Positions 3,585 through 34,939 are shown, numbered from the stretch's first letter. The stretch: 64,000 nt of DNA from Carbonactinospora thermoautotrophica (GCF_001543895.1 NZ_JYIJ01000019.1:372001-436000), one strand, 5' to 3'. Translations and numbers: made by a program. Notes: generated by a model not told the origin, from the letters alone.

Positions 3585-3999
3585 TCGGCCGCCCGGCGGG
3601 CGGTCACCTTCGTGGTCCGGTCGGCACCGGCGCGCGGTAGGGCCACGGTCGCCCGCGGGTGATCCCGGGTGCGAGCCCGCACGGTCCGACACCGCACCCC
3701 GCCTGTTGTCGTTCCGGCTGCGCCGACCTGGGGTCTTTCCCTTCCACCCGACCGCCTGCCTCACAGTCCGAAGTCCCTTGCCGGCACGTTAGGGAATCAA
3801 TTGCGCAGACATTGGCCGCCGTAGATCATAGGAAGCTTATCTTTAGTCAGGGGGTGCCAGAAGTTGTCAGGGGGGTGCTGGAGGTGTTGATCCTTTCCGG
3901 TTTCCGGCCATTTCCGTACATGCGGGTTCCGTCTGTCCACGGCCACCAGAACCAGCCGTGGCCCGCTGCGGCCCTTCGGCGGGAAGGCGGGTGTCGCAG
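3585..3999. other. Non-coding spacer upstream of the helicase operon
   Basis: About 415 bp without a convincing gene. The stretch 3780-3860 is visibly richer in A+T than its surroundings and is the likely place of the promoter for the genes that start at 4000. I see no clear -35/-10 pair and no strong repeat. Confidence 0.5.
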
Positions 4000-6900: not shown

Positions 6901-7320
6901 GCCGCCATGCGGCGGGCGATGCGCTTGCTCCCCGATGCCGGCCTGCTCGACGCCGACAGCCGTACCGCCGCCGCCATCCAGCTCTTCGAGGCCCGAAACA
7001 GTCGTGTGGCCTACCGTGTCGCCGACCAGGCCGGTCGGCTGTTGCGGGCAGCCGGTCGCGCCCTGCGCGCCACCCCTTACGCCCGGCTCTGGGCCGCGGT
7101 CGAGGCCCGCGTCCACTGGGACCGCGACTGGTACGCCCTGCCCGCCCTCTCGCTCGCGTTGGCACTGGCCGCCAGGGTCGGGGCACGCGGCTGTGCCGAG
7201 TGCGCCGAGCTGGTGCGGGGCAATCTACGCGCCTACGCCGATCTGGCCGTCGCCGGACCCGATCTGGTCCAGCTCGACGTCGTCCTTGCCGAAGCACTCA
7301 TCCTCGGGAACACCAAGTGA
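4000..7320 (+). CDS. Large unrecognised protein of a helicase-associated defence-like operon (DruH-like by context)
   Basis: The product is about 1106 residues; no family with known function was recognised. The N-terminal third is mixed alpha-helical with many aromatic residues (WPKVWQ, YRIWGEAFLEVL, LPRRYVNAVLAHAGVP); the middle (about 300-720) is rich in beta-type segments with alternating Val/Arg; the C-terminal part is Ala-rich and helical. ATG 4000 was chosen; GTG 3991 in the same frame lies closer to a GGGAAGG run and is an alternative. The stop codon overlaps the GTG of the next gene (GTGA), so the two are translationally coupled. A ~1100-residue unknown protein paired with a DUF1998 helicase resembles the two-gene Druantia type III layout (druH-druE); that is an analogy from layout and size, not a demonstrated homology. 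Confidence 0.8.
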   Translation: MKERLNPREVLGAFEAERRPRLQTVSLLAEDPVDVDEAKRILLCLGDRYLWTPTRERRRLLVRHYPACLAFGLVGLAAHQYDGGFWPKVWQCTRVTGKPENYRIWGEAFLEVLEENGLDTFPHLPRRYVNAVLAHAGVPVHFLGDFLRLVLKHLGEEPGVDGRFLVERVGERIRRGHSLYVAKPVEYFLREGGEYAVDFTDRCLDLVRHLHAEEDVPEGIGLPQVIVEELGRLLREDLADLRHVGHRGAAQVNPPRIALDPYVQGVHVVLPPVPGARDGQALWTVTVAGEPRHVRSVAPWVGPQAVAPATVFPIRSPAATVEVRLAGVFERSLSLVDPDDPLLVFAEDGRLVPPGAGLSRDSYWLLVPETRWHALEVKGELAEQEEVSAPYGWEGWSLRRVSLERVTWLGLPKGVRRAVKELHRPRLELSSPVAGVTTDREEPVHAVPPAVVFPAESGAAVTWSVTVRRTDTGRVLADRTLQVREETRFDPWEGLPRPLLGRYEIRVRGPLGRGFTRTVVLVSGLQLHAQPDFRRLTTAGLVPVTVRLTGDLGVSPGSGELRLAQEERSAVTVVEGGREVLELVITPPHAAVEHLPADTPPLGWQTSPVRIETESFDRPGHLLVRVPPGVRGGVMVFRAGSRELDRAHVAEPGPSGVVRVPLDRFADVVRRTRHGEFELDLAGVRMPVAVVRPRRLATAVRRQGDLLVLVDGVDAPGLTVLAYQVWAPWRPPVALPVREGITPPLPKDAVGPLRCLLRVDDPWVPQPVPVWPDDEAHGENVFDVEEVLPPGLLDPVGGAEAEAIAYLAGHGELHPSPELAPYALALHVHADRIAAGVDRAVRADAGAVLAAAPEAALAAVADSSFSGSELVHTLVGSGLVLTRPRVAVDLAVRLWDRSPLAAALASSALIGDPTGRDEARGELLPAATRRCGPLLEKLIDGADDPYRCVGRFGPEVEKFTRRTAAELAAMRRAMRLLPDAGLLDADSRTAAAIQLFEARNSRVAYRVADQAGRLLRAAGRALRATPYARLWAAVEARVHWDRDWYALPALSLALALAARVGARGCAECAELVRGNLRAYADLAVAGPDLVQLDVVLAEALILGNTK

Positions 7321-10300
7321 CCAAGACCTTCGATCCGCTCGCCGCCAGCCGATCGATCGATGAGACCTATCGGCGTTACCTGCGCTCGCTGCTGCCCGTT
7401 CGCGACCCGCGGCTCGCCGCCGAGCTCGACGCGGTCATCGGAGCCGAGGCACAGCTGCTCAAAGGGCCGCTGCTGGAATCATCGCCGCCCTACGCCACCG
7501 GCGCGACCCTGCGTGACCTGATCGCCGAGGGCGTGTTGGACCCCGCGCTCGCCCTGCTGGAGAGCCCCGCCCTCCCACTGGACCGGCCGCTCTACCGCCA
7601 CCAAGAACTGGCGGTCCGCAAGGCGGCAGCCGGGCGCAACCTCGTGGTCGCCACCGGCACCGGATCGGGGAAGACCGAGAGTTTCCTCCTCCCGATCCTC
7701 GCTGAGCTGTCCGCGCAGCACGCCCGGGGCGAGCTGGGACCGGGTGTGCGGGCGCTGCTGCTCTACCCGATGAACGCCCTCGCCAACGACCAGGTCAAAC
7801 GGTTGCGCCAGCTCCTGGCCGGCGCTCCGCACATCACCTTCGGCCGTTACACCGGAGAGACGCCGGAGCAGGCCGAGAAGGCCCTGGAGGAGTTCGCCGC
7901 CCTCAACCCCGGTCAGCCCCGCCTTTCCAACGAGTTGCTCAGCCGGGAGGAGATGCGACGCACCCCCCCGCACATCCTCCTCACCAACTACGCGATGCTC
8001 GAGTACCTGCTCCTCCGCCCGGAGGACATGGATCTCTTCGAGGGTGAGCACGGAGGCCACTGGCGGTTCGTCGTAGTCGACGAGGCCCACGTCTACGACG
8101 GTGCCAAGGGGGCCGAGCTCGCCATGCTCCTACGTCGGCTCCACGACCGGGTGGGCCGGGACGGCCGGCTGCAGGCGATCGCCACCAGCGCCACCGTCGG
8201 CGCGGAGACCGGCCCGGCCGCCGTCGCGAGGTTCGCCACCGACCTGCTCGGCCTGGAATTCGCGTACGACCCCGATGACCCCGACCGCCAGGACGTGGTC
8301 ACCGCATTCCGGCGGGAACGCACCGCCGTCCCAGTCTGGGGGCCACTCCCCGCAGAGGCTTACGCCGAGGTGCTCGCCGCCGAGGATCCGGCAGCCGTCC
8401 TGGGCGAGCACGCCGCCAGGGCCGGCGGCCCGCCGTCCGGCGCAGACCCGGCTACCCTCCTCGCTGGTGAGGCGCGGCTGAATGCCCTGCGCGAGCGGCT
8501 CGGAGACGGTCCTGTCCCGATCGAGCAGGTAGCCGAGGAGCTCTTCCCGGGCGACCCCCAGGCGCTGTGGCACACCACAGCTCTGGTCGCCCTGGGCAAC
8601 CGGGTCACCGACCCGGCCGGCACGCCGGTCCTGTCGACCCGGTACCACCTGTTCGCTCGGGCCACCGAGGGCGCCTTCGCCTGCTTCACCAGCGCCGGCC
8701 CGCACGTCGGCCTGGCCCGCCGGGACCGCTGCCCCACCTGTCAGGCGGTCGCCTTCGAGTTCGGCGCATGCAACCGCTGCGGCGGCGTCCACCTGGTCGG
8801 CACCGTGGAGCGGCAGGGCAACGTCGCCTACTTCCGAGCCCGGAAGGGCAACACCGAGACACCGGCCTGGCTCGCCCTCACCGACCGGGTCGCCCCGGCT
8901 GATGAAGACGACGCCACCCTGGTGGAGACGGCCGAGGTGCAGGCCGAGGAGGCCGTGCTGTGTGCCTGGTGCGGGGCGCTGCACGAACGGGCACCGCTCG
9001 CCTGCGACCGGCTCGGTTGCCGATCCACCGAGTTCCTGCTGGTGCGCAGGCTGTCCACGCGGGGCCACAACGTGACCAACTGCGTGATGTGCGGTGCGCG
9101 AGGTCCGCAGGTCGTCCGGATGTTCGAGAGCGGCAACGAGGCCGCTGCCGCGGTGCTCACCACCGCCCTCTACCAGCAACTTCCGCCTGATCCGCGCTCC
9201 CGCGACCTGCCCGGTGAGGGCCGCAAGCTGCTGCTCTTCAGCGACAGTCGGCAGGCGGCCGCCTACTTCGCCCCCTACCTGGAACGCACCTACCAGCGGC
9301 TCCAGCGCCGTCGGTTCATCCTGGCCGCGTTGGAGCGCGCCTACGAGGGCGACGAGGCGATCGACGGTGAGGAACTCGCCCGGTACGTCGTCAAGGAGGC
9401 CGAGCAGGCCGGGCTCTTCTCCTTCGCAGAGTCCCGTCGCAGCCGCACCAACCAAGCCCTCCTCTGGCTCCAGCAGGAATTGGTCGGTACGGACGAACGT
9501 AACAGCCTGGAGGGAACCGGCCTGGTACGTGTGGAACTGCTGCGCAACCCCCGCTGGCAGGTCCCGCCCGCCCTGCTCGGCCTGGGCCTCACCGAGGACG
9601 AGGCCTGGGACTTCCTCGCCGAGCTGCTCCGCTCGCTGCGCCGGCAGGGCGCGGTCACCACGCCGGACGGGGTCGATCCGGCCGACGAGGCGTTCGAGCC
9701 GCGCCCCGGCCCGATCTACGTCCGCGGCCAGGGTCCCGACGCCCGGTCGAAGGTGCTCAGTTGGCTGCCGGCCACCGCGTCGAACGCCCGGCTCGACTAC
9801 GTCGCCCGGGTGCTGCGCCGCCTTGGCCGCGAGGACGACCCTCGCCAGATCCTCCACGGCTGTTGGCGGTTGCTCACCGAGACCGAGCTCGTCGCCTGGC
9901 TGCCCGAGGCACCTGACCGGCGGATCCAGGGCGTCGTCCGTCAGCTCAACCACGAACTGCTCCGCTGGCGCCCGGTCCGGCCCGGCGAGACTGTCCTGCG
10001 GTGCACCAGATGCCGCCGGATCGCCCCGGTCAGCGTGCGCGGAGTCTGCCTCACCACCGGGTGCGACGGTGAGCTGGAACCCTGGCGGCTGCCTCGGCCG
10101 GAGGATGACGCCGACCACTTCCGCACCCTGTACCGAAGCCTCGACCCGGTCCCGCTCTCGGTGCGCGAGCACACCGCGCAGTGGAGCAGCAGGAAGGCGG
10201 CCGAGATCCAGCAGGCCTTCGTCCGCGGAGAGGTCAACGCTTTGTCCTGCTCCACCACGTTCGAGCTCGGCGTCGACGTGGGCGAGCTGCAGGCGGTGAT

Positions 10301-12293
10301 GTTGCGCAACATGCCGCCGACAACCGCCAACTACGTCCAACGGGCTGGCCGGGCCGGTCGGCGGACCGACTCGGCGGCGCTGGTCCTCACCTACGCGCAG
10401 CGCCGTTCGCACGACCTCACTCGCTTCACCGATCCGGTGCAGATGATCGCCGGACAGGTGCGCGCCCCCTACGTCCCGGTGGGGAACGTCCGGATCGCCC
10501 GCCGGCACGTCCACTCCGTGGCCCTCGCCGCCTTCTTCCGCCACCATTATCGGCTCACCGGGACGCGCTGGCGGACCGCGGGCGATTTCTTCCTCAGGGA
10601 TGGGGACCACGCCCCGGCCGAGCTGCTCGCCGACTACCTCAAGCCGGTCCCGGAGGAGGTGCGCGCGGCGGTCCGCCGCATCCTGCTCCCCAAGGTCGCC
10701 GCCGAACTCGGCGTGGACGACGACGCCTGGGTCCCGCACCTGCTGGACCTGGTGGACAAGGCCGGGGAGGCACTCCGGCATGACGCCGAGTTCTACCGGC
10801 GCAAGGCCGACGAGGCCTACGCCGCCCGCCGGGGGCGTGACGGGGACCGATTCGAGCGCGCCTGGCGCACGGTCACCAGCCGTTCGCTCCTCGGCTACCT
10901 CGGCAACCGCAACGTGCTGCCTAAGTACGGTTTCCCCGTCGACACCGTCGAACTGCGCACTGGCCTCGCCGACGCCGCGGAGGGGCGGGAGCTGGAGCTC
11001 ACCCGCGACCTCACCGCCGCCATCTACGAGTACGCCCCCGGGGCCGAGGTGGTCGCCGGCGGCCACCTGTGGCGCTCCGGCGGCGTCTACCGCCTTCCAG
11101 CCCGCGAACTGGTCGGCGCCTGGTACGCGGTCTGCGCCGCCTGCGGTCACTACCGGGAGTCGCTCGACCGGCCCGACCTGGCCTGTCCCGCCTGCGACAC
11201 CCCGCTCACCGGCCAGCCGCGCCGATACGTCGTTCCCGAGTTCGGGTTCGTCGCCGAACGCCGGACCCGCAAGCCGGGGCAGGAACCGCCGAAGCGGGTC
11301 TGGAACGGCGGTACCTACGTCGTCTCCACCGACGGTGAGATCCGCACCGGCGAGCTGGAACTGGCCGACGGTGCCTCCTTGACCTGGCGGTGTACCACCC
11401 GCGGTGAGCTGGTCGCGATCAGCGAAGGGCTGGGGGTAGGGTTCTGGATCTGCGACTCCTGCGGTTATGGCGAGCCGAACCGCGGTCGACCGCCCGCCCA
11501 TCATGACCGGCTCAACCGGGAGGGAAGGTGTGGCGGGCGCCTGGAGTGGGTCTCGCTCGCCCACAAGTACCAGACCGACCTGCTCCAGCTCTCCTTTTCC
11601 CCAACACTCACCCGGGTCATGTCCGACACCGGGTGGTGGTCCCTCCTCTACGCGCTGGTCGAGGGGGCCTGCCAGGCGCTGGAGATCAGCCGCGACGACA
11701 TCGACGGCACGCTCCACCACGACGCTGCCGGCAAGACCGTACTCGTTCTCCACGACACCGTCCCAGGCGGGGCCGGGCACGTCACCAGGATCGCCGACCT
11801 GCTCGACATCGTGCTCCGGACCGCTCTGGAACGGGTCCGGGACTGCGAGTGCGGCCTGGAGACCAGCTGCTACCAGTGCCTGCGTAACTACCGCAACGAA
11901 CGCCACCACGATCGGCTGCGGCGCGGCGCGGCAGCCGAGTTCCTCCGCCGCTGCCTGGGTACACCACCAATGCTGTCCCGGGTGTCCGAGATCCCCGGTA
12001 GCGGACCCGCCGTCCTCACCCTGACCAACTTGGCCGACGTCACCGACCTGCCGGCCAGGTTCGCTATCGCCGAATGCCCCGGCATCGTCTTCGAAACCGT
12101 TCACGCCGGCCAAGCCGACTTGCTGACCGGCCGGACGGTGCTGGTGGACGTCGCGGGCGAGACCGAGATCGGCTTGCTGCGCGCGGTCGTGGACGACGGG
12201 ACCGGCCCCCGGGTCGAACTCGTCTTCCCCGGCGAGTCCGCCGTTCACCACCCTGTGGAGGCGGTCCGCGTGCGGGCGGTGGCCGCCCTCTGA
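7317..12293 (+). CDS. DEAD/DEAH-box helicase with C-terminal DUF1998-type zinc domain
   Basis: This 1658-residue superfamily 2 helicase shows ATGTGSGKTE (Walker A, about residue 112), VVVDEAHVYDGAKGAE (Walker B, about 254), SATVG (motif III) and QRAGRAGR (motif VI, about 1007). Between and after the two motor lobes there are several CxxC pairs (for example CPTCQ, CNRCGG, CAWCG, CTRCR, CAACG, CPACD, CDSCG), and the end carries the DUF1998 cysteine cluster CECGLETSCYQCLRNYRN. Such Lhr/DruE/DrmA-like motors are typical of phage-defence systems and move along or unwind DNA. The GTG start at 7317 overlaps the stop of the preceding gene by four bases. The gene converges on the Hsp70 operon; a 40-bp palindrome lies in the 170-bp gap. 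Confidence 0.92.
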   Translation: MTKTFDPLAASRSIDETYRRYLRSLLPVRDPRLAAELDAVIGAEAQLLKGPLLESSPPYATGATLRDLIAEGVLDPALALLESPALPLDRPLYRHQELAVRKAAAGRNLVVATGTGSGKTESFLLPILAELSAQHARGELGPGVRALLLYPMNALANDQVKRLRQLLAGAPHITFGRYTGETPEQAEKALEEFAALNPGQPRLSNELLSREEMRRTPPHILLTNYAMLEYLLLRPEDMDLFEGEHGGHWRFVVVDEAHVYDGAKGAELAMLLRRLHDRVGRDGRLQAIATSATVGAETGPAAVARFATDLLGLEFAYDPDDPDRQDVVTAFRRERTAVPVWGPLPAEAYAEVLAAEDPAAVLGEHAARAGGPPSGADPATLLAGEARLNALRERLGDGPVPIEQVAEELFPGDPQALWHTTALVALGNRVTDPAGTPVLSTRYHLFARATEGAFACFTSAGPHVGLARRDRCPTCQAVAFEFGACNRCGGVHLVGTVERQGNVAYFRARKGNTETPAWLALTDRVAPADEDDATLVETAEVQAEEAVLCAWCGALHERAPLACDRLGCRSTEFLLVRRLSTRGHNVTNCVMCGARGPQVVRMFESGNEAAAAVLTTALYQQLPPDPRSRDLPGEGRKLLLFSDSRQAAAYFAPYLERTYQRLQRRRFILAALERAYEGDEAIDGEELARYVVKEAEQAGLFSFAESRRSRTNQALLWLQQELVGTDERNSLEGTGLVRVELLRNPRWQVPPALLGLGLTEDEAWDFLAELLRSLRRQGAVTTPDGVDPADEAFEPRPGPIYVRGQGPDARSKVLSWLPATASNARLDYVARVLRRLGREDDPRQILHGCWRLLTETELVAWLPEAPDRRIQGVVRQLNHELLRWRPVRPGETVLRCTRCRRIAPVSVRGVCLTTGCDGELEPWRLPRPEDDADHFRTLYRSLDPVPLSVREHTAQWSSRKAAEIQQAFVRGEVNALSCSTTFELGVDVGELQAVMLRNMPPTTANYVQRAGRAGRRTDSAALVLTYAQRRSHDLTRFTDPVQMIAGQVRAPYVPVGNVRIARRHVHSVALAAFFRHHYRLTGTRWRTAGDFFLRDGDHAPAELLADYLKPVPEEVRAAVRRILLPKVAAELGVDDDAWVPHLLDLVDKAGEALRHDAEFYRRKADEAYAARRGRDGDRFERAWRTVTSRSLLGYLGNRNVLPKYGFPVDTVELRTGLADAAEGRELELTRDLTAAIYEYAPGAEVVAGGHLWRSGGVYRLPARELVGAWYAVCAACGHYRESLDRPDLACPACDTPLTGQPRRYVVPEFGFVAERRTRKPGQEPPKRVWNGGTYVVSTDGEIRTGELELADGASLTWRCTTRGELVAISEGLGVGFWICDSCGYGEPNRGRPPAHHDRLNREGRCGGRLEWVSLAHKYQTDLLQLSFSPTLTRVMSDTGWWSLLYALVEGACQALEISRDDIDGTLHHDAAGKTVLVLHDTVPGGAGHVTRIADLLDIVLRTALERVRDCECGLETSCYQCLRNYRNERHHDRLRRGAAAEFLRRCLGTPPMLSRVSEIPGSGPAVLTLTNLADVTDLPARFAIAECPGIVFETVHAGQADLLTGRTVLVDVAGETEIGLLRAVVDDGTGPRVELVFPGESAVHHPVEAVRVRAVAAL

Positions 12294-12328
12294 CCAGGCG
12301 ACCGGCCCGAGCCAGCGAGCCGAGCTTC

Positions 12329-12368
12329 CGTCGGGTGCGTGCCGTCACGTGACGGCACGCACCCGACG
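12329..12368. terminator. Perfect 40-bp palindrome between convergent operons
   Basis: Two 20-base arms (12329-12348 and 12349-12368) are exact reverse complements with no spacer. It lies 36 bp after the helicase stop and 95 bp past the end of the Hsp70 gene on the other strand, so it could stop transcription from both sides. Its core half-site GTGCGTGCCGTCAC differs by one base from that of the palindrome at 38679-38730, which hints at a protein-binding site instead of, or as well as, a terminator. Confidence 0.75.
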
Positions 12369-12380
12369 CCGCGGGCCGGC

Positions 12381-12456
12381 GGCCTCGACGTACAGCCGGC
12401 AGGTCACCTTCTCCTGCCCGGGATGCGGGAAGACCGGCTGCAGCGCGATCGGCCCG
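12381..12456 (-). pseudogene. Relic of a UvrD-type helicase gene
   Basis: Two short blocks match the intact UvrD-type gene at 17767-19884 in the same orientation. Bases 12381-12399 match 18856-18874 with one difference, and 12402-12456 match 19122-19177 at most positions. The roughly 250 bp that separate the two blocks in the intact gene are missing here, so this is a deleted, decayed copy. No reading frame is preserved. Confidence 0.55.
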
Positions 12457-12463
12457 TAAAGGA

Positions 12464-14629
12464 TCACTCCTCACTCGAGTACCAGGAGCTGTTCTCCCAC
12501 CCCTTTGGCAGGGAGTCCGTGGCTTCGCGGGCCGAAGCGCTGGTGTCTCTCGGCGCGACGTCCGTCGTCGGTCCTGGTCTCGCCGCAGGGGGCGTACGGA
12601 ACTTGAAGATCCACTCGTCGCCAAGGAGTGTCCCTCCAAGGACCCGCCCTTCTTCCCGCAGCCACGGGTGTTCGGCCTGGAGTTCCCGGAAGCTGTCGTT
12701 GGAGACGACGATCCCGCCGCGTCGGAAGGCGATCTCGACCACAAGCGCGTCGGCCTTGCCCTTGGTCCCCGCCGGGGGTTGGATAATCCGGTTCTCTCGC
12801 AGTGCCCGCTCGACGGCGGCCCGCTCATCATCTCCGACCCGGTGGCGGAAGCTCGCGTCCACCACCACGAAGATCTCCCGGCCCGGGAACTCCCGTTCCA
12901 GCTGGACCAAGGCTGCCACCAGCTGACGGAAACTCGCTTTGTGCCCCTCCCGTACAGCCCGGTTGACCGAGGCGAGATTGGAACCGTCCACCACGAGGGG
13001 ACCGGGTTTCGCGTCGTCATCTCCGGCCTGGCGCTCGTCCCCACCGAGCTGTCGTTGGATCTCCTCCCAAGAAGGGGTCGACTGGGGCGGGACCTGCTCA
13101 CGGTCCAGTTGCCCGAGGGCGCCTCCCTGCTCCAGGAGCCGGTTCAGCTCGGCCTCGGCGTCCTGCTCCACCGGTGTGCCGTCTTCGCCGAAGCAGTTGA
13201 TCTCCCGGTCGAAGATGACCTGCCCGGTGCGCTCCAGCACCGCCTTGATCCGGAGGATGCCGCTGACGTCGTATCGGTAGGTGAGGCGGAACCGGTTGGC
13301 TAGTGCGGGCCCGGGGGCGGGGACCGGCAGTTCGAGTCGGGTGAGCAGGAAGTTGCGGGCGTCGTCCATGGGGCGAGTGTGGTCGCCCTCCCACACCTCG
13401 ACCACGAGCGAGGTGGCCCCGTCGACCGCGGGTTGGGCAGTACGGCTCCTCTCGGCAGGCAGAGTCGAGTTGCGGTCGATGATCGAGACGAAGCGCCGTC
13501 CCTGACCCACCCAATAGCCGGTGCCGAGGTCGTAGTGGGTCACGACCGCGATGTCCCGGTCCTCGATCTGGCCGTCCATGATCGCCGCAGCGATCGCGGC
13601 GCCACGTGCGACCGCCGCCATGGGTTCACAGACCAGTGGGCTCACCGGCTCCTGGCCGAGGAGTCGCGCCACCTCCGTCCGGACCTTGGGAATCTGGCTG
13701 GTGCCCCCGATCATGAGGACGGCGTCGATGTCGTCCGGGCCGTACCCGATGCTTTCCAGGCACTCTTCCACCGGTTCGAGGGCCCGCTCGATGAGGTCGG
13801 CGACGGCTTCCTCGAACTCGATCCGTTCCACCTCGGTGAAGTCGCTGCCGTCAGGCGTGAAGAACTGCACCCGCTCTTCGTCCGAAAGAGCGATCTTGGT
13901 GAGTTCCACCGCTCGGCGGAACCAGAGCTTTTCCTTGCGGCTCATCGTGTCCGGGTCGGGGACCGAGCGGAGCTTGCGGGCCACCAGCCGGGCTAGGCGC
14001 TCGTCGAACTCCAACCCGCCCAGCCTGGGGATGCCGCGCGAGGCCAGCTCCTCGAAGAGCCCGTCGTGGTAGTCGAGCACGGTGACGTCGATGGTGCCCC
14101 CGCCCCAGTCGAAGACGAGGAAGCGTCCTTCGCCCGGCACGTCGTACGCATAAGCGATCGCCGCGGCGGTCGGCTCGTTGATCAGTGCCTTCACCGAGAT
14201 GCCGGCGAGCCGTGCGGCCGCCCGCGTACGGTACCGGGCCGCACCCGTCGCGTTGGCCGGGACGGTGATGACCGCTTCGGAGAGGTCGACGAGGTTACGC
14301 TGCGCACCTTCGCGCATCTGCCGGAAGAGCGCGGCCGCCACCGTGGTGGCGCGGTAGTCCCAGGTGCCCAGCCGGATGCGCTCGTCACCGAGGAGCATGC
14401 GTTTGACCGCCTCGACCGGATAGTCGCTCTCGCACTTGGCCATCCAGCCGAAACTCGGTCGCTCCTGCCCCGGCCGTATCCCTACGACCGAAGGGAAGAG
14501 CGACTCGAAGCCGGGCCGGTGCCACTGCGCCGGTATCCGGTGCCGGTCCACCGGCACGACCTCGGCCTCGCTCCCGTTCCACCGGGCGACCACCGAGTTG
14601 GAGGTGCCGAAGTCGATCCCGAAGCTCAT
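12464..14629 (-). CDS. Hsp70-type ATPase fused to an NYN/Zc3h12a-like RNase domain
   Basis: This 721-residue protein has an Hsp70 nucleotide-binding domain: GIDFGTSNS at residues 4-12 (phosphate 1), VFDWGGGTIDVTVLDY at 172-187 (phosphate 2, with Trp where DnaK has Leu) and MIGGTSQIPKVR at 306-317 (adenosine site). A short beta substrate-binding-like part follows to about 475. The helical lid is absent. After a charged linker, residues 545-675 form an NYN/PIN-like RNase unit: VVDGSNLA (Asp548), VVVDASF (Asp591), KADALVVE (Asp627) and VSNDSFREL (Asp645) match the acidic catalytic pattern of Zc3h12a/Regnase-type nucleases. Its ATG overlaps the stop of the upstream GrpE-like gene (ATGA). I infer an ATP-controlled RNase or a nuclease delivered by an Hsp70 clamp; the target is unknown. 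Confidence 0.88.
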   Translation of the reverse strand: MSFGIDFGTSNSVVARWNGSEAEVVPVDRHRIPAQWHRPGFESLFPSVVGIRPGQERPSFGWMAKCESDYPVEAVKRMLLGDERIRLGTWDYRATTVAAALFRQMREGAQRNLVDLSEAVITVPANATGAARYRTRAAARLAGISVKALINEPTAAAIAYAYDVPGEGRFLVFDWGGGTIDVTVLDYHDGLFEELASRGIPRLGGLEFDERLARLVARKLRSVPDPDTMSRKEKLWFRRAVELTKIALSDEERVQFFTPDGSDFTEVERIEFEEAVADLIERALEPVEECLESIGYGPDDIDAVLMIGGTSQIPKVRTEVARLLGQEPVSPLVCEPMAAVARGAAIAAAIMDGQIEDRDIAVVTHYDLGTGYWVGQGRRFVSIIDRNSTLPAERSRTAQPAVDGATSLVVEVWEGDHTRPMDDARNFLLTRLELPVPAPGPALANRFRLTYRYDVSGILRIKAVLERTGQVIFDREINCFGEDGTPVEQDAEAELNRLLEQGGALGQLDREQVPPQSTPSWEEIQRQLGGDERQAGDDDAKPGPLVVDGSNLASVNRAVREGHKASFRQLVAALVQLEREFPGREIFVVVDASFRHRVGDDERAAVERALRENRIIQPPAGTKGKADALVVEIAFRRGGIVVSNDSFRELQAEHPWLREEGRVLGGTLLGDEWIFKFRTPPAARPGPTTDVAPRDTSASAREATDSLPKGWENSSWYSSEE

Positions 14630-15519
14630 CCGCGCCCGTCCTTCTCGTCAACCTTCCGTTCCACGGCACCACCGCCCGGGGCGTCCTCCCCTGGTACGGA
14701 TGCATCGGCGTCGCGCCTTTTCACCAGCCGTTCCACCAGCTCGGCGCCGTGCGCGGCGGGCGGTCCCACCGGTCGGAGGATGCCGGACTGGACCAGGCGG
14801 CCGTCCGAGACGTCCACGTAGGCGGGGGCCACGATCTCCAGCTCTTCCCCCTCGCCGTCCTCCAGCAGGAAGAGCGAGGGGTCCTCGACCGTGGTCACCC
14901 GTCGCAGGCCGGCCGCCCTCAATTGGGTGTCGACCAGGTTCCTCACCGTTTTCAAAGGGCGGTCTGTCATCAAATACCGGTCAAGCACTGCTAGCTGGGC
15001 GAGATGGAGTTCCCGAGCGCGCATGCCTTCCAGAATCGCTTTACGGACAACCTCAAGAACACGGGGAAGAACGGCTTCGCGGAGAGCGTCATGCAGCGCC
15101 TCGGAGACCGCCTGGCGAATGGCGTCCTGGATACATCCACTGGCTAGGGAGCCTAGATAGTCATCCAGCTGCCCCTTTATGTCGCTATCGAGAACCTTTA
15201 TCACTAGTTTTGAGACATGTTCGTGGAGGGCGACCGCGTCAAAGGCTCCTGGTGCCACCGGTCGCTGGCCGAAGTACTGAGCGGCAACAGGCTCGTCGAG
15301 GAGTTCGGCAGAAATCCTCTTGCCATCCGTCCGGCGTTTGCCTCTGGTCCGCCGGATGCCCTGCTCCGTCACCAGCCCTTCCCGGTCTTGCCACTCAGTT
15401 TGAGTCCGCGATCTTTCTCCTGGCGCTTGTACCGCCAGCTTCGCTTCGCGTGCTTTCTTTTTATTCCTCGCCAGTCGCTTTTGTCGTGGTGTTTGCTCCT
15501 TATGCGGTGGAGTAGTCAT
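14626..15519 (-). CDS. GrpE-like candidate nucleotide-exchange factor
   Basis: The 297-residue product starts with a very basic segment (RQKRLARNKKKAREAKL), followed by a long helical region (about residues 95-200). It then has a compact beta segment at about 204-252 (GLRRVTTVEDPSLFLLEDG ... YVDVSDGRLVQSGILRPV). Long helices followed by a small beta wing are the layout of GrpE, which drives ADP release from DnaK; the end of the wing (GRLVQSGILRPV) recalls the GrpE signature. The level of similarity by eye is modest, so this is a structural guess supported by context: it lies between a J-like gene and an Hsp70 gene, with 1-base (TGATG) and 4-base (ATGA) overlaps. It could be an unrelated adaptor. 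Confidence 0.6.
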   Translation of the reverse strand: MTTPPHKEQTPRQKRLARNKKKAREAKLAVQAPGERSRTQTEWQDREGLVTEQGIRRTRGKRRTDGKRISAELLDEPVAAQYFGQRPVAPGAFDAVALHEHVSKLVIKVLDSDIKGQLDDYLGSLASGCIQDAIRQAVSEALHDALREAVLPRVLEVVRKAILEGMRARELHLAQLAVLDRYLMTDRPLKTVRNLVDTQLRAAGLRRVTTVEDPSLFLLEDGEGEELEIVAPAYVDVSDGRLVQSGILRPVGPPAAHGAELVERLVKRRDADASVPGEDAPGGGAVERKVDEKDGRG

Positions 15520-17309
15520 CAGGTTCTGTCTCCTCCGTCCTGGCGTCTCCGATCCCGCAACCTGGCGAGCAGCTCTGTCGCGGCCGCGCGGCGTGACCAT
15601 GCCTGCTCCTCAGGGCTGGGACGATCGGTACGCCGGGGGAGCGGTCGCGGGGCTGGCCGGAGCAGGCCGGTCGCGTTCTCCGGAGCACGCAGTGCCGCCA
15701 TGTCGAGCGGGACTGCGAAGAAGGGGAGAGACCGACCGGCCTGTGCCGAGGCCTTGATCCGGTCCTTCGCGCGATTGATGACGATCTTGCCGTCCGTGTC
15801 GAGCGACCGGCGGAGTTGGGCCCATCGGCGGTTCCACTCGGGGGAGCCGTGCGGGAGCCCCAGGACGAAGTACGGGTTCATTGCCTCTTCCCGCACCTCT
15901 TCCCGCGTCACGTACTGCCGTTCCGACCATTTGTTGAGCAGGGAGAGGTTGGCCTTGAGGGCGGCCCAAGCCGTATTCGGAACCATTCTTTTCTTCGCGC
16001 CGTTGCGGTAGTCCTCTCGCAGTGAGATGAGCAGATCCTTCGCCTCAGCCAGCCGGCTGCCAAATGCGAGGAGGTAGGCCAGGAGATTTCCCGCCTCCAA
16101 GCGGAGCAACCAAGCCTTTTTCGGCAGAGTTCTTGTCATCAACAGCTTCGCTTGGGCGTAGGCCTGGTTCAGGAGTTGCGGGTTTCCCCGCGGGTTGTGT
16201 GGTTGCGCAGCGTGTCCGTCGACGAGTAGCTCGTACGCACGGCGCATCCCCGCCCAGGCGTGGAAGGCGGTGAGCGGGCGGATCGGTTTCTCCTCGGGCA
16301 GCACGCTCTCCAACAACGGCCACAGGGTCCGATCCGCGGCGAGCGCCGCATCGACCTGACCACTCAAGTGCGCCTGGTGAAGAGCGGCGACGACTGGGCG
16401 ATCCTCGGCGGGAACCAGGTCGCCGAGGTCATCAAGGGCGCTCCAACCTCCGTCGCGCAGTGCGGCCAGTGCGCTCCAAAGGTCGTGCCCGTCCGGTTCC
16501 GGGGGAACCTCATCTCCTTCCAGCAAGGCCCGGCGTCTCTGCTCGTCCGACCAGCCGAGGCGGGCGAGAGCGTCGTCGTCGAGTTTCCCTGGAGACAGCC
16601 GGGCCAGCAGGTAGTCCCTTCTCGTGCTCTCCAGTTCGTGGATGAGTTCCGTCACATCGCCCTGGATGATCCTCTGATCGATGAGGTCGTCGACGAAGGG
16701 CAGCGGAGCCGTGGCCAGGATGGAGCGAAGGTAAGTCTCGTCGATCCGCCGGACGCCAAAGGCGAGCGCGCTTACCTGACGGTGCAGGAGCCAGGCCGGT
16801 CCGTCGAACTCAGGATCCGACGCCACTTGCCACGGTTCGTCCTTCCCCTCGGCCAGATGACGGGCGCGGGCTATCAGATTCGCGGGCAGCACCGGCAGTC
16901 CGGCCCGCGTGGCTCGGAGGAGCGCGGCCAGCGCACCGATGCTGTCCTCGGCTTCGGCGGCGTACGCCACGAACGCGTCCGGCAGATCCGGGACAGGCCG
17001 TCCTTCGGCGGCCGCTTCCAGGGCGTCGGCGTTCGGCCCGCTGTTCACCAGGGCGAGCAGCGCTCGGGCGGCCGCGCACACGTGTGCGATGGCTTCCGGG
17101 GTGACGACACCCAGGTGTCGCCACACTGCGGCGTCCCGCTCGGCTCCCGCGTCCGGCCGTCCGTCGCGGGACGCCGCGGCCGCGTCAGGTGTCGCCCCAG
17201 ACGCCGAGGCTGACCCTCTAGTTCCCGCGATCGCGGCCCTACGCGCAGCCCGTTGCCGTCGGCGCTCCCGCTCGGCCTCTATGGCTGCTCTACGGGCATC
17301 GAGTTGCAC
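15519..17309 (-). CDS. Helical protein with a degenerate J-like segment, first gene of the Hsp70 operon
   Basis: GTG 17309 is chosen because a G-rich run (GGGGGTGG) lies just upstream and the coding-like sequence begins there, giving 596 residues. The N-terminus is a charged helix (ARRAAIEAERERRRQR); most of the rest is Ala/Leu-rich and helical, TPR-like in feel (WLLRLEAGNLLAYLLAFGSR). Residues about 478-515 begin with NPYFVLGLP, as J domains do (helix I), followed by an Arg-rich helix and then DTD where a J protein has HPD, then a third helix. HPD is needed to stimulate Hsp70 ATPase in known J proteins, so this would be a J-like rather than a true J domain. Coupled by TGATG to the GrpE-like gene. 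No defined family recognised. Confidence 0.7.
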   Translation of the reverse strand: MQLDARRAAIEAERERRRQRAARRAAIAGTRGSASASGATPDAAAASRDGRPDAGAERDAAVWRHLGVVTPEAIAHVCAAARALLALVNSGPNADALEAAAEGRPVPDLPDAFVAYAAEAEDSIGALAALLRATRAGLPVLPANLIARARHLAEGKDEPWQVASDPEFDGPAWLLHRQVSALAFGVRRIDETYLRSILATAPLPFVDDLIDQRIIQGDVTELIHELESTRRDYLLARLSPGKLDDDALARLGWSDEQRRRALLEGDEVPPEPDGHDLWSALAALRDGGWSALDDLGDLVPAEDRPVVAALHQAHLSGQVDAALAADRTLWPLLESVLPEEKPIRPLTAFHAWAGMRRAYELLVDGHAAQPHNPRGNPQLLNQAYAQAKLLMTRTLPKKAWLLRLEAGNLLAYLLAFGSRLAEAKDLLISLREDYRNGAKKRMVPNTAWAALKANLSLLNKWSERQYVTREEVREEAMNPYFVLGLPHGSPEWNRRWAQLRRSLDTDGKIVINRAKDRIKASAQAGRSLPFFAVPLDMAALRAPENATGLLRPAPRPLPRRTDRPSPEEQAWSRRAAATELLARLRDRRRQDGGDRT

Positions 17310-17766: not shown

Positions 17767-19884
17767 TCACGGCAACAACGGGCTGGGCCGGTCGCCGTGG
17801 GTCACCAGCAGCGACTCCCGGGCTCGGGTGCAGGCGACGAAGAGCAGGCACCGCTCCCGCTGCAGGTCCTGGGCGTGCTGGAGCTGGTCCTCCTCGGCGG
17901 GTGTGACCGCCTTCGGGGCGGGGACGGTGCCGTCGGAGACGTCGACCACGGCGACGCAGCGGAACTCCAGCCCCTTCATCCGGTGCATCGTGCCGACGCG
18001 TACCGCCTCGCGGTCGGGGGTGTCCGCGGCCGAGCCGATCCTCACCGCGGCGTGCCCCGCCTGCTCCAGCGCGGTGATCACCCGGTCCGCCGTCCAGCCG
18101 GCCCGGGTGGCCACGCCGACCGCCTCCGGCTCCACCCCGTCGGCGAGCCACCGGCCTACCCGGTTGACGACGGCCTTCAACTGCCCGTCGAGGTCGGGCG
18201 CGGCGACCACCTCGGGCCGGCGGCCGTGGACCGGGGAGTGGTAGCCGTCGAGCGTGTCCACCCCGTCGTCGAGGTCGTCGACGCGTTCGCCGGTGAGGAT
18301 GCGCACCGCCCAGTCGAGGATCTCCTGCGTGGTGCGGTAGCTCACCGTCAGCCGGTGCGACCGGCCCGCGGTGCTGATCCCCAGCCGGGCGAGGGAGACC
18401 CGGTTGTCGTAGATCCGCTGGTGGGGGTCGCCGGTGATGAACAGGTCGTCCGGGCCGGTCGGGACCACCGCGCGCAGCAGACGCCACTGCGCGGGATGAA
18501 GGTCCTGCGCCTCGTCGACCACCACGTGGGCGTACGGCTTGTCGGCCCGCTGTGCCCAGGCCCGGGCCGCCTCGGCGCAGACCTGCAGGTGGGTGGATTG
18601 GCCGTGCAGCAGCTCGGTGAACGCCGACACCGCCTGCCACACCCGAGCCCGCTGCACCGGGCCGAGCGGTCTGCCCCGACCGGCGCGGGACGTGGCGAGG
18701 TACTCCTCGGCGGTACGTGCGTCGTGGGCGAGGATCACCTGCCGCCACTCCTGGGCCAGGAAACGGGGGGTGAACGGCGCCTCGGTCTCCTCGACCACCC
18801 GCGTCCACAGCTCGTCCTCCGCCTGTGCGGAGAGGATCCGCGGCTGTTCGCCGGTGGCCTCCACGTACAGCCGGTGGGCCACCCGGTCGACGTTGAGCAC
18901 CTCGATCCGCTCGCGCACGGCCGGGTCGTCCACGAGCAGGCCGATGAGCTCCTCCAGCGTGGCGGCGAGGTTGCGGGTGAAGGTGGTCAGCAGCACCAGG
19001 CCGGGCCGGCCCTCGCGGGCCAGGCGCTCGGCCAGGTGCTTGGCGCGGTGGAGCGCCACCACCGTCTTGCCGGTGCCGGCGCCGCCGGTCACCTTGGCCG
19101 GGCCGGAGTAGGAGGGCCGGTAGGCCACCTTCTCCTGTCTGGGGTGGAGGAAGACCCGCCACAGCGCGATCGGCCGGTCGAAGAAGGCCAGCAGCTCCTC
19201 GGGCCCGTCGACCAGTGCGATCCGCCCCTGGGAGCGTTCCATGGCGGTGACCAGGTCGTCGGGGTCGACCTTCTCGGGCTTGGTGTTCTCGGCGAGGAAA
19301 GTACCGGCCAGCTCCTGCCAGACCTCCTCGGGGGTCATCCCGGAGGCGAGCCCGGTGAGGACCAGGTACTGGGGTTCGGGGATCAGGGCGCCGAGAGCGT
19401 CGAGCTGCGCCTCGTTCCGGATCAGGCGGGCCAGGGCGAGGACCTGCTCGTCGATCCCGAGCCTGCGCAGGTCGGCGTCTGAGACGTGGTCGAGCAGCCC
19501 CCGCTGCTGTGAGGCGGCCGCCGACTCCAGGGCGGCGGAGAAGCTCTCCATCCCCGCCTCGTTGCGGACCTCCAGGACACCCACCGCCTGGTTGACGCTG
19601 AACCGCCGGCTGCAGGCGTAGTCGTTCGCCTCGTCGTGGGGGAGCACCCGGAGCAGGCAGTAGACGTCGCCCCGTTCGGGGGTGAGGACCACGCCCCGCC
19701 AGAACCTGGTGATCCGGATGGTACGGATCCGCGGATCCTTGGCCCCGGTCAGCTTCTCCAGGTGCAGGCCGGCGTGGGTGTGCTCGGCGAACTTGCCGAA
19801 GACCTCGTCGACGGCCCGCTGGACGCTCTTCTCCAGCTTGCTGTAGTCGGCGAAGAAGTCCCGCGACACTGCCAGCGTCGCCAC
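17767..19884 (-). CDS. UvrD/Rep-type helicase with RelE/ParE-like N-terminal domain
   Basis: The product has 705 residues. Helicase signatures: GGAGTGKT (267-274, Walker A), VVVDEAQDLHP (454-464, Walker B), GDPHQRIY, SYRTTQEI, TMHRMKGLEF and VACTRARE, all typical of superfamily 1A 3'-5' DNA helicases. Residues 1-95 differ from UvrD: a helix (DYSKLEKSVQRAVDEVFGKF) followed by LHLEKLTGAKDPRIRTIRI and a strand with YCLLRVLPHDEA has the layout of the RelE/ParE toxin fold. GTG 19884 has a G-run (19887-19893) as ribosome site. The gene is divergent from the seven-gene operon that starts at 20040; 155 bp separate them. Probably part of the same defence island, possibly a single-gene toxin-helicase defence factor. 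Confidence 0.88.
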   Translation of the reverse strand: MATLAVSRDFFADYSKLEKSVQRAVDEVFGKFAEHTHAGLHLEKLTGAKDPRIRTIRITRFWRGVVLTPERGDVYCLLRVLPHDEANDYACSRRFSVNQAVGVLEVRNEAGMESFSAALESAAASQQRGLLDHVSDADLRRLGIDEQVLALARLIRNEAQLDALGALIPEPQYLVLTGLASGMTPEEVWQELAGTFLAENTKPEKVDPDDLVTAMERSQGRIALVDGPEELLAFFDRPIALWRVFLHPRQEKVAYRPSYSGPAKVTGGAGTGKTVVALHRAKHLAERLAREGRPGLVLLTTFTRNLAATLEELIGLLVDDPAVRERIEVLNVDRVAHRLYVEATGEQPRILSAQAEDELWTRVVEETEAPFTPRFLAQEWRQVILAHDARTAEEYLATSRAGRGRPLGPVQRARVWQAVSAFTELLHGQSTHLQVCAEAARAWAQRADKPYAHVVVDEAQDLHPAQWRLLRAVVPTGPDDLFITGDPHQRIYDNRVSLARLGISTAGRSHRLTVSYRTTQEILDWAVRILTGERVDDLDDGVDTLDGYHSPVHGRRPEVVAAPDLDGQLKAVVNRVGRWLADGVEPEAVGVATRAGWTADRVITALEQAGHAAVRIGSAADTPDREAVRVGTMHRMKGLEFRCVAVVDVSDGTVPAPKAVTPAEEDQLQHAQDLQRERCLLFVACTRARESLLVTHGDRPSPLLP

Positions 19885-20039
19885 GTGCCCCCCTGGTTTT
19901 CCGGACGCGGTGTCCTGATCGATTGTCCAAAATCATGGCACGCGGTGCCGGCTCATAGCCGTTGTCCGTACAACCGGCCCGTGGGTCGGCGAGTCCCATT
20001 AGAGTCCGGGCTACGCGCATCGGGGTGAGGGGGAAAGCT
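19885..20039. promoter_or_regulatory. Divergent promoter region
   Basis: 155 bp between the UvrD-type gene (reading left) and the DUF1998 helicase gene (reading right). It must hold start signals for both. The right-hand gene has GAGGGGGA (20027-20034) as ribosome site before its TTG at 20040. No clear palindrome seen. Confidence 0.5.
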
Positions 20040-23000
20040 TTGGACGTCTTCGAGATTCGTGACCGGCTGATCGAGGACTACAAGTCCTTCACCACGGCCT
20101 CCGTGGTCATCCGGGACGAGCGGATCCAGAGCTTCGTCCAGGAGGAGCTGGCCCGGGGCCGGCAGTGGCCGGACCCGTGGCTCTCGCTCAACCCGAACTT
20201 CGCCTCCGGCGGCTCGATCACCGACCTCGTCGCCGAGGGACTGCTCCACCCCCGGTGCGAGCAGATCTTCCGGGTCAAGCAAGGCGAAGACGACCTCGGC
20301 GCCCGGCCGATCACCTTGTACAAGCACCAGCGGGACGCGGTGGAGGTGGCGCGCGGCGGCGAGAGCTACGTGCTGACCACCGGCACCGGGTCGGGCAAGA
20401 GCCTCAGCTACATCGTCCCGATCGTGGACCGGGTGCTGCGGGAGAAGGAGGCCGGGGACACCGCCCACCGCATCCGGGCGATCATCGTCTATCCGATGAA
20501 CGCCCTGGCCAACAGCCAGCTCGGCGAGCTGGAGAAGTTCCTCACCTACGGCTTCGGCCGGGGCAACGAGCCGGTCACCTACGCCCGGTACACCGGCCAG
20601 GAGGGCGACGCCGAGCGCGACGAGATCCTGCGCCGCAAGCCGGACATCCTGCTCACCAACTACGTGATGCTGGAGTACCTGCTGATCCGGCCGAGGGAGC
20701 GGCGGGAACTCATCCGGGCGGCCCAGGGCCTGCGGTTCCTCGTCTTCGACGAGCTGCACACCTACCGGGGTCGGCAGGGCGCCGACGTGGCCCTGCTGAT
20801 CCGGCGGGTGCGCGAGGCCTGTGACTCCCCGGACCTGCAGTGCGTCGGCACCTCGGCCACCATGTCGAGCGAGGGCGGCCTGGCCGAACGCCGCGCGAAG
20901 GTCGCCGAGGTCGCCTCCCGCATCTTCGGCACCGAGGTCACCCCCGACCGCGTGATCGGGGAGACCCTGGTCCGGGCCACCGCCGACCTCGACCCCACCC
21001 CCGAACAGCTCGCCGCGGCGATCGACCGAGCGATCGACGGCGGGCGGACCCGCGACTACGCCGAGCTGCTCACCGACCCGCTGGCCTGCTGGATCGAGAC
21101 CACCTTCGGCCTGACCACGGAGGAGGGGGTCCTGGTACGGCAGCGGCCGACCAAGGTGCCCGACGCGGCGGAGAGACTGGCCAAGGACACCGGCGTGCCG
21201 GTCGAGCGGTGCGTCGAGGCGATCAAGGCGGTGCTGCACGCCGGCTCCCGGGCCAAACACCCCGAGACCGGCCGGCCGCTCTTCGCCTTCCGGCTCCACC
21301 AGTTCCTCTCCAAGGGCGACACGGTCTACCTGAGCCTGGAACCCGAGGACGTCCGGTTCATCACCGACCAGTACCAGCAGGTCGTCCCGGGCCAGCCGGA
21401 CAAGGTCCTGCTCCCCGCGGCCTTCTGCCGGGAATGCGGCCAGGAGTACCTGGTCGTCGCCAAGGTCTCCCGGGGCGGCCGGACCGTCTACGAGCCGCGC
21501 CAGGAGCGCGATGCCTCCGGCGGCGACTCCGCCAACGGCTACCTGTACATCAGCAGCGCCGCGCCCTGGCCGGTGGACCGGATCCAGGCGGTGCGGGAGG
21601 GCCGCGTCCCCGACTCGTGGGTCGCCCCGAACTCCGACGGCACCCCCGACGTGGTGCCGAGCAAGCAGAAGTACCTGCCGCGCCAGGTCCACGTCGCCCT
21701 GGACGGCACCGAGGTCGGCCCCGGGGAGGGGCTGGAAGCCGCCTTCGTCCCGGCCCCGTTCACCTTCTGCCTGCGCTGCCGGGTCTCCTACGAGCAGACC
21801 CGCGGGCAGGATTTCGCCAAGCTGGCCACCCTCGACGCCGAGGGCCGCAGCTCGGCGATGTCGGTGATCAGCGCCAGCATCGTGCGCAGCCTGCAGACGG
21901 CCGAGGTGGACGAGGAGGCGCGCAAGTTGCTCACCTTCGTCGACAACCGCCAGGACGCCAGCCTGCAGGCCGGTCACTTCAACGACTTCGTCCAGGTGAC
22001 CCACCTGCGCGGCGCGGTCTACCGGGCGGCGCTCGAAGCCGGCGAGGAGGGGCTGCGGTACGAGGACGCCGCGCGCAAGGTGGCCGAGGCGCTGGAGCTG
22101 CCCTTCGAGACGTTCGCGCAGAACCCCGGGGCCCGGTTCGCCCAGCGGGAGACCACCCTGCGGGCGCTGCGCGAGGTGGTGGACTACCGGCTCTTCCTCG
22201 ACCTGGAACGCGGCTGGCGGGTCACCATGCCCAACCTGGAGCAGACCGGGCTGCTCCGGTTCGGCTACGTCTCCCTGGCCGAGATCGCCGAAGCCGAGGA
22301 CGTGTGGGAGCACACCCATCCGGCCCTGCGGGACGCCCCTGCCGAGGCGCGGTTCCAGGTGGGCCACATCCTGCTGGACGAGATGCGTCGTGCCCTCGCG
22401 GTCGACGCCGAGTGCCTCACCCTCGCCGGGTTCGAGCGGATCCAGCGCCTGTCCGATCAGTACCTCACCGGGCCGTGGGCGCTGCCGGAGAACAGCGTCC
22501 CGCCCCGGGTGGCCACGGTCTTCCCCGCGCCGTCCCGGCCCGGCCGCTCCCGGGCGGACGTCCACCTCACCGGCCGGTCCCTCTTCGGTCGCTACCTGCG
22601 CCGGCCCACCACCTTCCCGCACGCTCGCGAGGTCAAGGTCGAGGACGCTCAGAAGATCATCAGCGACCTGCTGAAGGTCTTCGAGGAGTGCGGACTGCTC
22701 ATCACTGCTGTCGACCCCAAGCAGAACAAGGGGGTACCCGGCTACCGGCTCAAGGCGGGTGCGTTGATCTGGCGGGCCGGCGACGGCAGAGAGGGCTCGC
22801 CGGACCCGCTGCGTAAGCAGTTCGACCCCGAGCTGGGCGCCCGGGTCAACCCGTTCTTCGTCCGGCTGTACCGGGAGACCGCCCACACCCTGGCCGGGCT
22901 GCACGCGGCCGAGCACACCGCCCAGGTCCCGGCCCCGCTGCGGGAGCAGCGGGAAGACCGCTTCCGCCGGGGGGAGCTGCCGTTGCTGTACTGCTCGCCC

Positions 23001-32145: not shown

Positions 32146-32190
32146 GACCAGCCGAAGCAGCGCGCTATGAAGTGAAAATTGGCGAAAGGG

Positions 32191-33963: not shown

Positions 33964-33970
33964 GGCGCAC

Positions 33971-34939
33971 GTGGCCCACCCCTTCGATCGTCACCGCCGT
34001 AGCGGGGTTCCGGAGAAGTGGGCGCTGCTCACCCGGGCGCTGGAGGCGATGCCGCCGGGCACCTGGATCACCTACGGCGACCTGGCCGAACTCATCGGCA
34101 CCGTGCCGCTCGCGGTCGGTCAGCACATCGCCGGCAACCCGGTGCCCAACCCCCACCGGGTGCTCCGCTCCGACGGGCGGGTCTCCCCGGACTTCCGCTG
34201 GGTCGACCCGAACCGCACCGACGACCCGCGCAAGCTCCTCGAAGCCGAGGGCGTGGTCTTCGACGCCGACGGCCGGGCCGATCCCGCGCAGCGGGTCACC
34301 GCCGAGGGGTTCCGCTTCCTTCTCGGCCCCGACGAAGCCGAAGAGACCGCCGAGAAGACCGCCACCCGCCGGGCCTGGCTGGTGCGCGGGTCCAGCGTCC
34401 GCGGGGCCAACCTGGTGCCGGACTGGCTGGCCGAGGGGTTCTGCTCGCTGCCCGCGGCCAAGCTGCGCGAGCTGTCGCCTGGGACCCCATACGAGCAGGT
34501 CAAGGAGGCGGTGGAGGAGGACTACGCCCACGCCTCCTACCACGACCGCAGCGAGAAGGCGTACGAGTTCCACACCTTCCTCACCAGGATGCGCGAGGGC
34601 GACCTGGTGCTCACCACCGCCACCGGCGGGCGGGCCTACCTGGGCGTGGTCGCCGGGGAGCCGCAGTTCGTGGCCAGCAGGGACAACACCTCCAACCTGC
34701 GCCGCCCGGTGCGGTGGCACCGGGAGCCCTTCGACTGGGTGGACGACCTGCCGGACGGCATCGAGACCAAGCTGCAGACCCAGGCGACCGTGGTCGACCT
34801 GACCGACTTCGTCGACGAGCTGGCCGCGCTGATCGGCGCGGGCGGGGAGCCGGAGGCCGCCGAGGCCCGGCCGCGCGAGCTGGTCCTGCCCGACCCCACC
34901 CCGGAGCTGGCCGAGAAGCTGCTGGTCGACCTCGACTGA
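33971..34939 (+). CDS. N-terminal half of a split McrB-like protein: ATL-type wHTH plus EVE-like sensor domain
   Basis: Residues 1-100 resemble the DNA-binding domain of O6-alkylguanine methyltransferase-like (ATL) proteins: MPPGTWITYGDLAELIG, then VPNPHRVLRSDGRVS, with Asn-Pro in place of the catalytic Pro-Cys. Residues about 135-250 (RAWLVRGSSVRGANLVPDW ... GDLVLTTATGGRAYLGVV) look like an EVE/PUA-type modified-base reader. GTG 33971 is chosen (GTGAGG 5 bp upstream); ATG 33944 in frame overlaps the AIPR gene. The frame ends at TGA 34937-34939 and continues without shift into the McrB AAA+ domain. Related McrB proteins commonly have a Trp just before this point (W-L-x-E-I), so TGG to TGA is the simplest explanation. 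The function as a free protein is unclear. Confidence 0.75.
   Translation: MAHPFDRHRRSGVPEKWALLTRALEAMPPGTWITYGDLAELIGTVPLAVGQHIAGNPVPNPHRVLRSDGRVSPDFRWVDPNRTDDPRKLLEAEGVVFDADGRADPAQRVTAEGFRFLLGPDEAEETAEKTATRRAWLVRGSSVRGANLVPDWLAEGFCSLPAAKLRELSPGTPYEQVKEAVEEDYAHASYHDRSEKAYEFHTFLTRMREGDLVLTTATGGRAYLGVVAGEPQFVASRDNTSNLRRPVRWHREPFDWVDDLPDGIETKLQTQATVVDLTDFVDELAALIGAGGEPEAAEARPRELVLPDPTPELAEKLLVDLD

Follow-up and report, generated by a model that had tools for sequence, protein, structure and literature searches.

An Hsp70 with a predicted RNase in place of its lid, encoded in a recurrent three-gene module tied to YprA-family defence helicases

Composition and recurrence of the three-gene module

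A stretch of 64,000 nucleotides from Carbonactinospora thermoautotrophica (GCF_001543895.1, NZ_JYIJ01000019.1:372001-436000), hereafter the window, contains at positions 12464-17309 three overlapping genes, designated HEL, MID and HSP, encoding a J-like helical protein, a GrpE-like protein and an Hsp70 bearing a predicted RNase domain. The trio is a module tied to YprA-family (DUF1998/MZB) defence helicases and was found next to genes of Druantia IV, of ARMADA and of a Druantia-III-like gene pair. The genes and the RNase domain are located as follows:

15519-17309, minus strand: HEL, GTG start, 596 amino acids (aa)
14626-15519, minus strand: MID, ATG start, 297 aa
12464-14629, minus strand: HSP, ATG start, 721 aa
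12633-12997, minus strand: NYN/Zc3h12a RNase domain of HSP, residues 545-665, with the acidic motifs VDGSN, GKADAL and VSND (from the Pfam span and the alignment to ZC3H12 proteins)

The stop codon of HEL and the ATG of MID have one base in common (TGATG), and MID and HSP overlap by four bases (ATGA); the coordinates, frames and overlaps given in the initial annotation of this DNA, made from the sequence alone, are correct. No Pfam or PADLOC family matched HEL or MID, and no model of PADLOC-DB 2.0 gave a significant match to HEL, MID or HSP of the window or to nine Streptomyces trio proteins; a lone Csx1 match among the trio proteins had an E-value of 0.013, and one MID had weak coiled-coil-type matches. 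A canonical dnaK-grpE-dnaJ set is located elsewhere on the same contig, together with additional Hsp70 and J genes, and the trio is therefore an extra, divergent set.

A tblastn search with MID of about 200 genomes of the order revealed 20 other genomes, all with HEL, MID and HSP in this order (20/20). Scanning genome contigs with the MID alignment yielded 51 loci in Streptomyces and Actinacidiphila, in genomes partly shared with the tblastn set. The three genes lie on the same strand and in the same order in 51/51 of these loci, and the 4-base MID/HSP overlap is kept in 50/51, so the arrangement is not due to chance. Among 297 genomes of the class, Pfam PF11977 gave four matches only, all in frames of 685-919 aa. 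Two of them, in genomes G595 and G814, belong to a second actinomycete family, in which the trio was found in all four genomes (these two, G857 and G843). The recurrence of the same three neighbours, which the initial annotation had proposed to look for, is thereby documented in both groups. PF11977 matches in two other actinobacterial families (G483 and G359) were rejected, being long frames with an NYN domain and neither an Hsp70 nor the trio. A scan of genome contigs with the single MID protein detected no relatives, nor did a profile scan of viral contigs; the alignment of HEL yielded no usable pattern.

Hsp70 with an RNase domain at the position of the lid

The HSP protein matches Pfam HSP70 with 236 bits (E 8e-70), the match reaching residue 470 and spanning the beta part of the substrate-binding domain (SBD-beta), and RNase_Zc3h12a with 34.2 bits (E 2.6e-8; curated cut-off 23), in agreement with the Hsp70-RNase fusion recognized initially. 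Judged from the Pfam spans and the alignment, the position of the lid is occupied by a linker and the NYN domain. The latter aligns to RNase structures of ZC3H12A/B/C (best E 1.7e-5) with matched VDGSN, D and SND positions. By its sequence, HSP is an Hsp70 nucleotide-binding domain (NBD) with SBD-beta, in which the alpha lid is swapped for a predicted Zc3h12a/NYN RNase.

The ATP-site motifs are invariant among the trio Hsp70s, with DFGT, GGGT, NEPTAA and GGTSQIP conserved; the phosphate motifs, the VKR/CKR lysine, N170 and E171 are likewise retained. The column of DnaK R167 contains A, T or M in 52/52 trio Hsp70s and A, T or S in those of the second family (n=4), whereas the two canonical Hsp70s of the window's genome have R there. 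The arginine contacting the HPD motif of J proteins is accordingly gone in all 56 trio Hsp70s examined, and the position of linker residue D393 is also altered in the displayed trio sequences.

The NYN motifs VDGSN, GKAD and SND are retained in most loci, and the domain is degenerate in loci L033 and L034 (VDGR, SME). In the NBD tree the window protein, on a long branch, is sister to the degenerate and RNase-less sequences (support 100/99), which is consistent with a stepwise loss of the RNase. The designation of HSP as an RNase-tipped Hsp70 holds for the window and most loci; in one branch the tip is degenerate or absent. L064, where the contig ends, and L059, where the frame is split, also lack NYN but were not counted as true losses. 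In L059, from a Streptomyces genome, HSP (10363-12440) is broken into two frames of 469 and 222 aa, representing a sequencing error or decay.

GrpE-like and J-like partners

The AlphaFold model of MID, based on a 52-sequence alignment, has a mean predicted local distance difference test score (pLDDT) of 75 and comprises one helix of 54 residues, a second, short helix and a beta sheet. The top three Foldseek hits among 350,542 PDB chains were GrpE (E 0.12-0.28, a weak match). With VIA-align, the top six were GrpE or GrpEL1 (Z 8.5-8.9; best root-mean-square deviation 2.6 A across 82 residues), followed by unrelated helical proteins at Z 7.3. The MID profile scored 32.5 against actinobacterial GrpE, beating 200/200 column shuffles, which peaked at 21.6. 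The GrpE-like layout proposed initially was thus borne out by the predicted fold and the profile, and MID is best described as a predicted GrpE-fold protein (long helix, short helix and beta wing) not assigned to the GrpE family; the Pfam GrpE search of the genome retrieved the canonical GrpE alone.

The model of HEL (pLDDT 88) is all-helical, with TPR-like repeats, and residues 325-466 match TPR/14-3-3-like structures. The fold search with the whole protein retrieved TPR and 14-3-3-like proteins and no J proteins, although a model of 596 aa may mask a small domain. The J-like segment is located at about residues 476-523, where the conserved block NPYxxLGLPHG..W..RWR.LRR...N.AK.RI aligns by profile with J-domain helices I-II (score 22.6; maximum of 200 shuffles 19.3, beaten in 200/200). 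Both the helical nature and the J-like segment noted initially were recovered, the J likeness by profile and not by fold. The HPD motif is missing from 48/48 HEL sequences checked. HEL is accordingly modelled as an all-alpha TPR-like scaffold bearing an HPD-less J-like segment.

In DnaK and DnaJ, residue D35 of HPD bonds R167 of DnaK, and D393 of the linker is required for coupling (PMC8215388). Since HPD and R167 are both lost in the trio, the J-like partner and its Hsp70 receptor appear, from their sequences, to have altered jointly. The initial annotation suggested a complete but rebuilt Hsp70 cycle; the rebuilding stands, but the cycle is neither complete nor canonical with respect to HPD and the contacting arginine, and is better termed rewired.

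Association with YprA-family helicase systems

The trio of the window adjoins convergently a pair of plus-strand genes:

3958-7320, plus strand: SEN, 1120 aa, no known domain; overlaps the helicase gene (GTGA)
7317-12293, plus strand: YprA/DruE-family helicase with MZB (DUF1998) domain (PADLOC DruE1, 1e-183; Pfam DEAD/MZB)

In comparison with Druantia type III, which combines the DruE helicase with DruH, the helicase of this pair (3958-12293) matches DruE1/DruE3, and SEN has no PADLOC match. Orthologs of SEN (29-37% identity) are encoded in loci L147, L149 and L150 of the second family, and a 55% identical ortholog of the helicase is the last gene of a five-gene operon in L147 and L149, consisting of SEN (about 1105 aa), HEL, MID, HSP with NYN, and YprA. 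In these two loci the trio sits between both genes of the Druantia-III-like pair; in L150 the SEN-YprA pair is divergent from the trio. Because SEN and YprA form one operon with the trio in L147 and L149 and adjoin it convergently in the window, the system in the window probably has five genes. The unit of three genes recognized initially recurs as such, but the functional unit of the window probably also includes the convergent 1120-aa gene and the YprA helicase. SEN is likely a partner or sensor. The SEN-YprA pair also occurs in other genomes without the trio, e.g., in L178-L188; SEN-like proteins of ~1100 aa, without PADLOC matches, were found in 19/395 genomes of the class, and none was found on plasmids.

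In Streptomyces, some trios follow the Druantia IV genes DruF4-DruE4 (in L048, DruE4 ends at 8097 and HEL starts at 8100), and others follow YprA, BrxHII-like and PglX-like genes, the composition defined for ARMADA (PMC12458937; in L071, the end of PglX and the start of HEL are both at 8097). At these junctions with DruE4 or PglX-like genes, the ends overlap or abut. Other Streptomyces trios are preceded by a UvrD-like helicase gene or are located upstream of, or divergent from, YprA and BrxHII-like genes. A YprA gene lies within 10 kb of the trio in 19/51 loci, and HsdM in about 10. The enrichment of DUF1998 helicases anticipated initially was found: 8/21 trio genomes have an MZB helicase gene no more than 20 kb away from the trio, compared with a random expectation of about 1.3% per locus, which was derived from the number of MZB genes (58 in about 175 Mb) and is not corrected for relatedness; several distinct arrangements occur.

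Some further genes adjoin the trio. Directly downstream of it, L036 (1213-7617, minus strand) encodes a 2134-aa protein whose N-terminal part, matching PD-T4-6/Mokosh-like kinases, is fused to a YprA-family helicase, and two loci of the ARMADA-coupled branch, L044 (2975-5191, minus strand) and L045 (4696-8169, minus strand), encode dynamin-like GTPases with LeoA and LeoBC matches. Upstream of the Druantia IV-trio operon of genome G195, locus L145 (5615-7927, minus strand) contains a helicase-sized gene with a start that is RelE-like by eye; it adjoins a 2250-aa frame with an MZB match, so that two YprA systems are neighbouring.

Proposed function and alternatives

On the evidence of the sequences, the trio is somewhat more probably than not a defence-dedicated Hsp70 switch controlling an RNase. 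A fuller version, held more tentatively and at slightly less than even odds, is that a rewired yet complete Hsp70-J-GrpE cycle would switch an immune RNase, setting its timing or threshold, and would be a module portable across several YprA-helicase defence systems. HEL, with its scaffold and J-like segment, would hand a cue to the Hsp70, MID would reset the Hsp70 nucleotide, and the lid-replacing NYN RNase would be placed or freed depending on whether the Hsp70 carries ATP or ADP, resulting in RNA cleavage upon sensed infection. In the window the cue would most likely come from SEN and the YprA helicase next to the trio; the module of Streptomyces is coupled to ARMADA or Druantia IV, the RNase being dispensed with in the latter. 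We infer a physical complex of the trio proteins, regulation of the ATPase, RNA cleavage and phage defence.

Several observations weigh against the proposed switch. The NYN domain is absent from the Druantia IV-linked set (HSPs of 586-600 aa), and the RNase is therefore not a constant output. In about one third to two fifths of the loci from Streptomyces, the probes used revealed neither a defence helicase nor HsdM within 10 kb, and no plasmid or phage copy was found (HEL and HSP were searched on plasmids, HEL in phages). With regard to the partners, Pfam GrpE (PF01025) matches 0/52 MID members and the Foldseek E-values for GrpE are 0.12 or worse; Pfam DnaJ finds no match in HEL, and the J-like profile match spans 24 columns only.

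Persistence of the module in Druantia IV loci after loss of the RNase, together with its repeated coupling to genes for helicases of 1500-2100 aa, would also be expected of an accessory chaperone for assembly or quality control of very large YprA helicase complexes, with the RNase tip of minor importance. This explanation is considered unlikely, as a YprA gene is missing from the 10 kb around many trios and the RNase motifs are conserved in most loci. The loss of HPD and R167 is also compatible with an RNA-directed effector, in which the Hsp70 would bind RNA or ribosomes and guide the RNase with no real J/GrpE cycle, as proposed for the Hsp70s of CoCoNuTs, since Hsp70-like subunits accompanied by RNases in Druantia-linked CoCoNuTs are predicted to be RNA-binding (PMC11090510). 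The ATP-site motifs of the trio are, however, invariant, compared with degenerate versions in CoCoNuTs, and the GrpE-fold partner is always retained, which makes such an effector quite improbable. The tightly overlapping genes, of which that for the RNase comes last, resemble a toxin-antitoxin arrangement, in which HEL and/or MID would merely keep the RNase inactive until degraded or titrated on infection; but the partners look like Hsp70 co-chaperones and are kept in the Druantia IV branch, which lacks the RNase, and this explanation is the least credible, with very little probability assigned to it.

Comparison with known systems

The trio resembles the DnaK-DnaJ-GrpE set in its three-part composition, the NBD with SBD-beta and the GrpE fold, and differs from it in the RNase at the lid and in the absence of equivalents of HPD, R167 and linker D393. 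Among predicted conflict systems, those with GAP1-N2 GTPases include HSP70, GrpE and DnaJ/TPR-FNIII proteins (Kaur et al. 2020, PMC7159879); a second theme in actinobacteria, with a predicted conflict role, combines HSP70, GrpE and a protein bearing a DnaJ domain or TPR repeats, similarly to the trio. Unlike these systems, the trio has a HEL without FNIII, a lid replaced by the RNase and a link to YprA helicases, and none of its neighbours in the window that were tested with Pfam is a GAP1-N2 GTPase.

Predicted RNA-binding Hsp70 homologs, in superoperons with Druantia III, are also part of CoCoNuTs, and in type III (CnuD/Hsp70-McrB) an Hsp70-like protein likewise accompanies RNases and Druantia-type helicases (PMC11090510). 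The trio differs in lacking an Hsp70-McrB/McrC fusion and in having intact ATP motifs, its own GrpE-fold partner and an NYN rather than a HEPN RNase; type III combines its Hsp70 unit with CnuB/CnuC (McrB/McrC-like) proteins, and the window has AAA_5 and McrC genes 18 kb away from the trio, not fused to the Hsp70. The trio is coupled to ARMADA and Druantia (PMC12458937, PMC8565338), both of them systems with YprA-family helicases; the main text of the ARMADA paper does not mention chaperones or DnaK, and the PADLOC Druantia models do not match the trio. Phage sensing by bNACHT25 is DnaJ-dependent, a precedent for a J protein in this role (PMC12169576), but it uses host DnaJ, unlike the dedicated, HPD-less set of the trio.

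Neither an NYN-tipped Hsp70 nor the trio was found in the accessible parts of the GAP1-N2 and CoCoNuT descriptions, and the open-access text searched yielded no published description of this make-up. The initial statement that no described system has it stands to that extent, with chaperone-containing conflict systems as precedents. The trio is rated as a conflict module of the chaperone type with a new composition and a new connection to YprA systems, the GAP1-N2 and CoCoNuT Hsp70s being precedents. The recurrent attachment of an Hsp70-RNase trio to known anti-virus systems suggests that a chaperone cycle was made into an immune switch. If so, immune control would have taken over an Hsp70 machine that served protein folding, the RNase standing where the lid was, and a portable component would be shared by ARMADA, Druantia IV and Druantia-III-like defence. 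The combined loss of HPD and the arginine provides a natural test case for the triggering of Hsp70s by J proteins.

Neighbouring genes of the window

Upstream of HEL, an ARMADA-like array (19962-32145, plus strand) is preceded by a divergent GajB-like gene, and the defence island extends downstream of the array (32179-36987, plus strand):

17767-19884, minus strand: GajB/UvrD-like helicase (Pfam/PADLOC), upstream of HEL on the same strand, N-terminal part RelE-like by eye
19962-25268, plus strand: YprA-family helicase of the array
25265-28135, plus strand: BrxHII/DpdE/DrmD-like helicase of the array
28132-32145, plus strand: PglX/DrmMI-like methyltransferase of the array
32179-33963, plus strand: AIPR/AbiU-like gene
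33893-34939, plus strand: gene with MGMT-like DNA-binding domain
35069-36987, plus strand: AAA_5 and McrC genes, 18 kb from the trio

The minus-strand open reading frames 19953-23258 and 28408-31350 were discarded, since they merely shadow the helicase and methyltransferase genes of the plus strand. A RelE-GajB fusion has been reported for ARMADA II (PMC12458937), and the GajB/UvrD-like gene at 17767-19884 probably belongs to the neighbouring ARMADA array and not to the trio.

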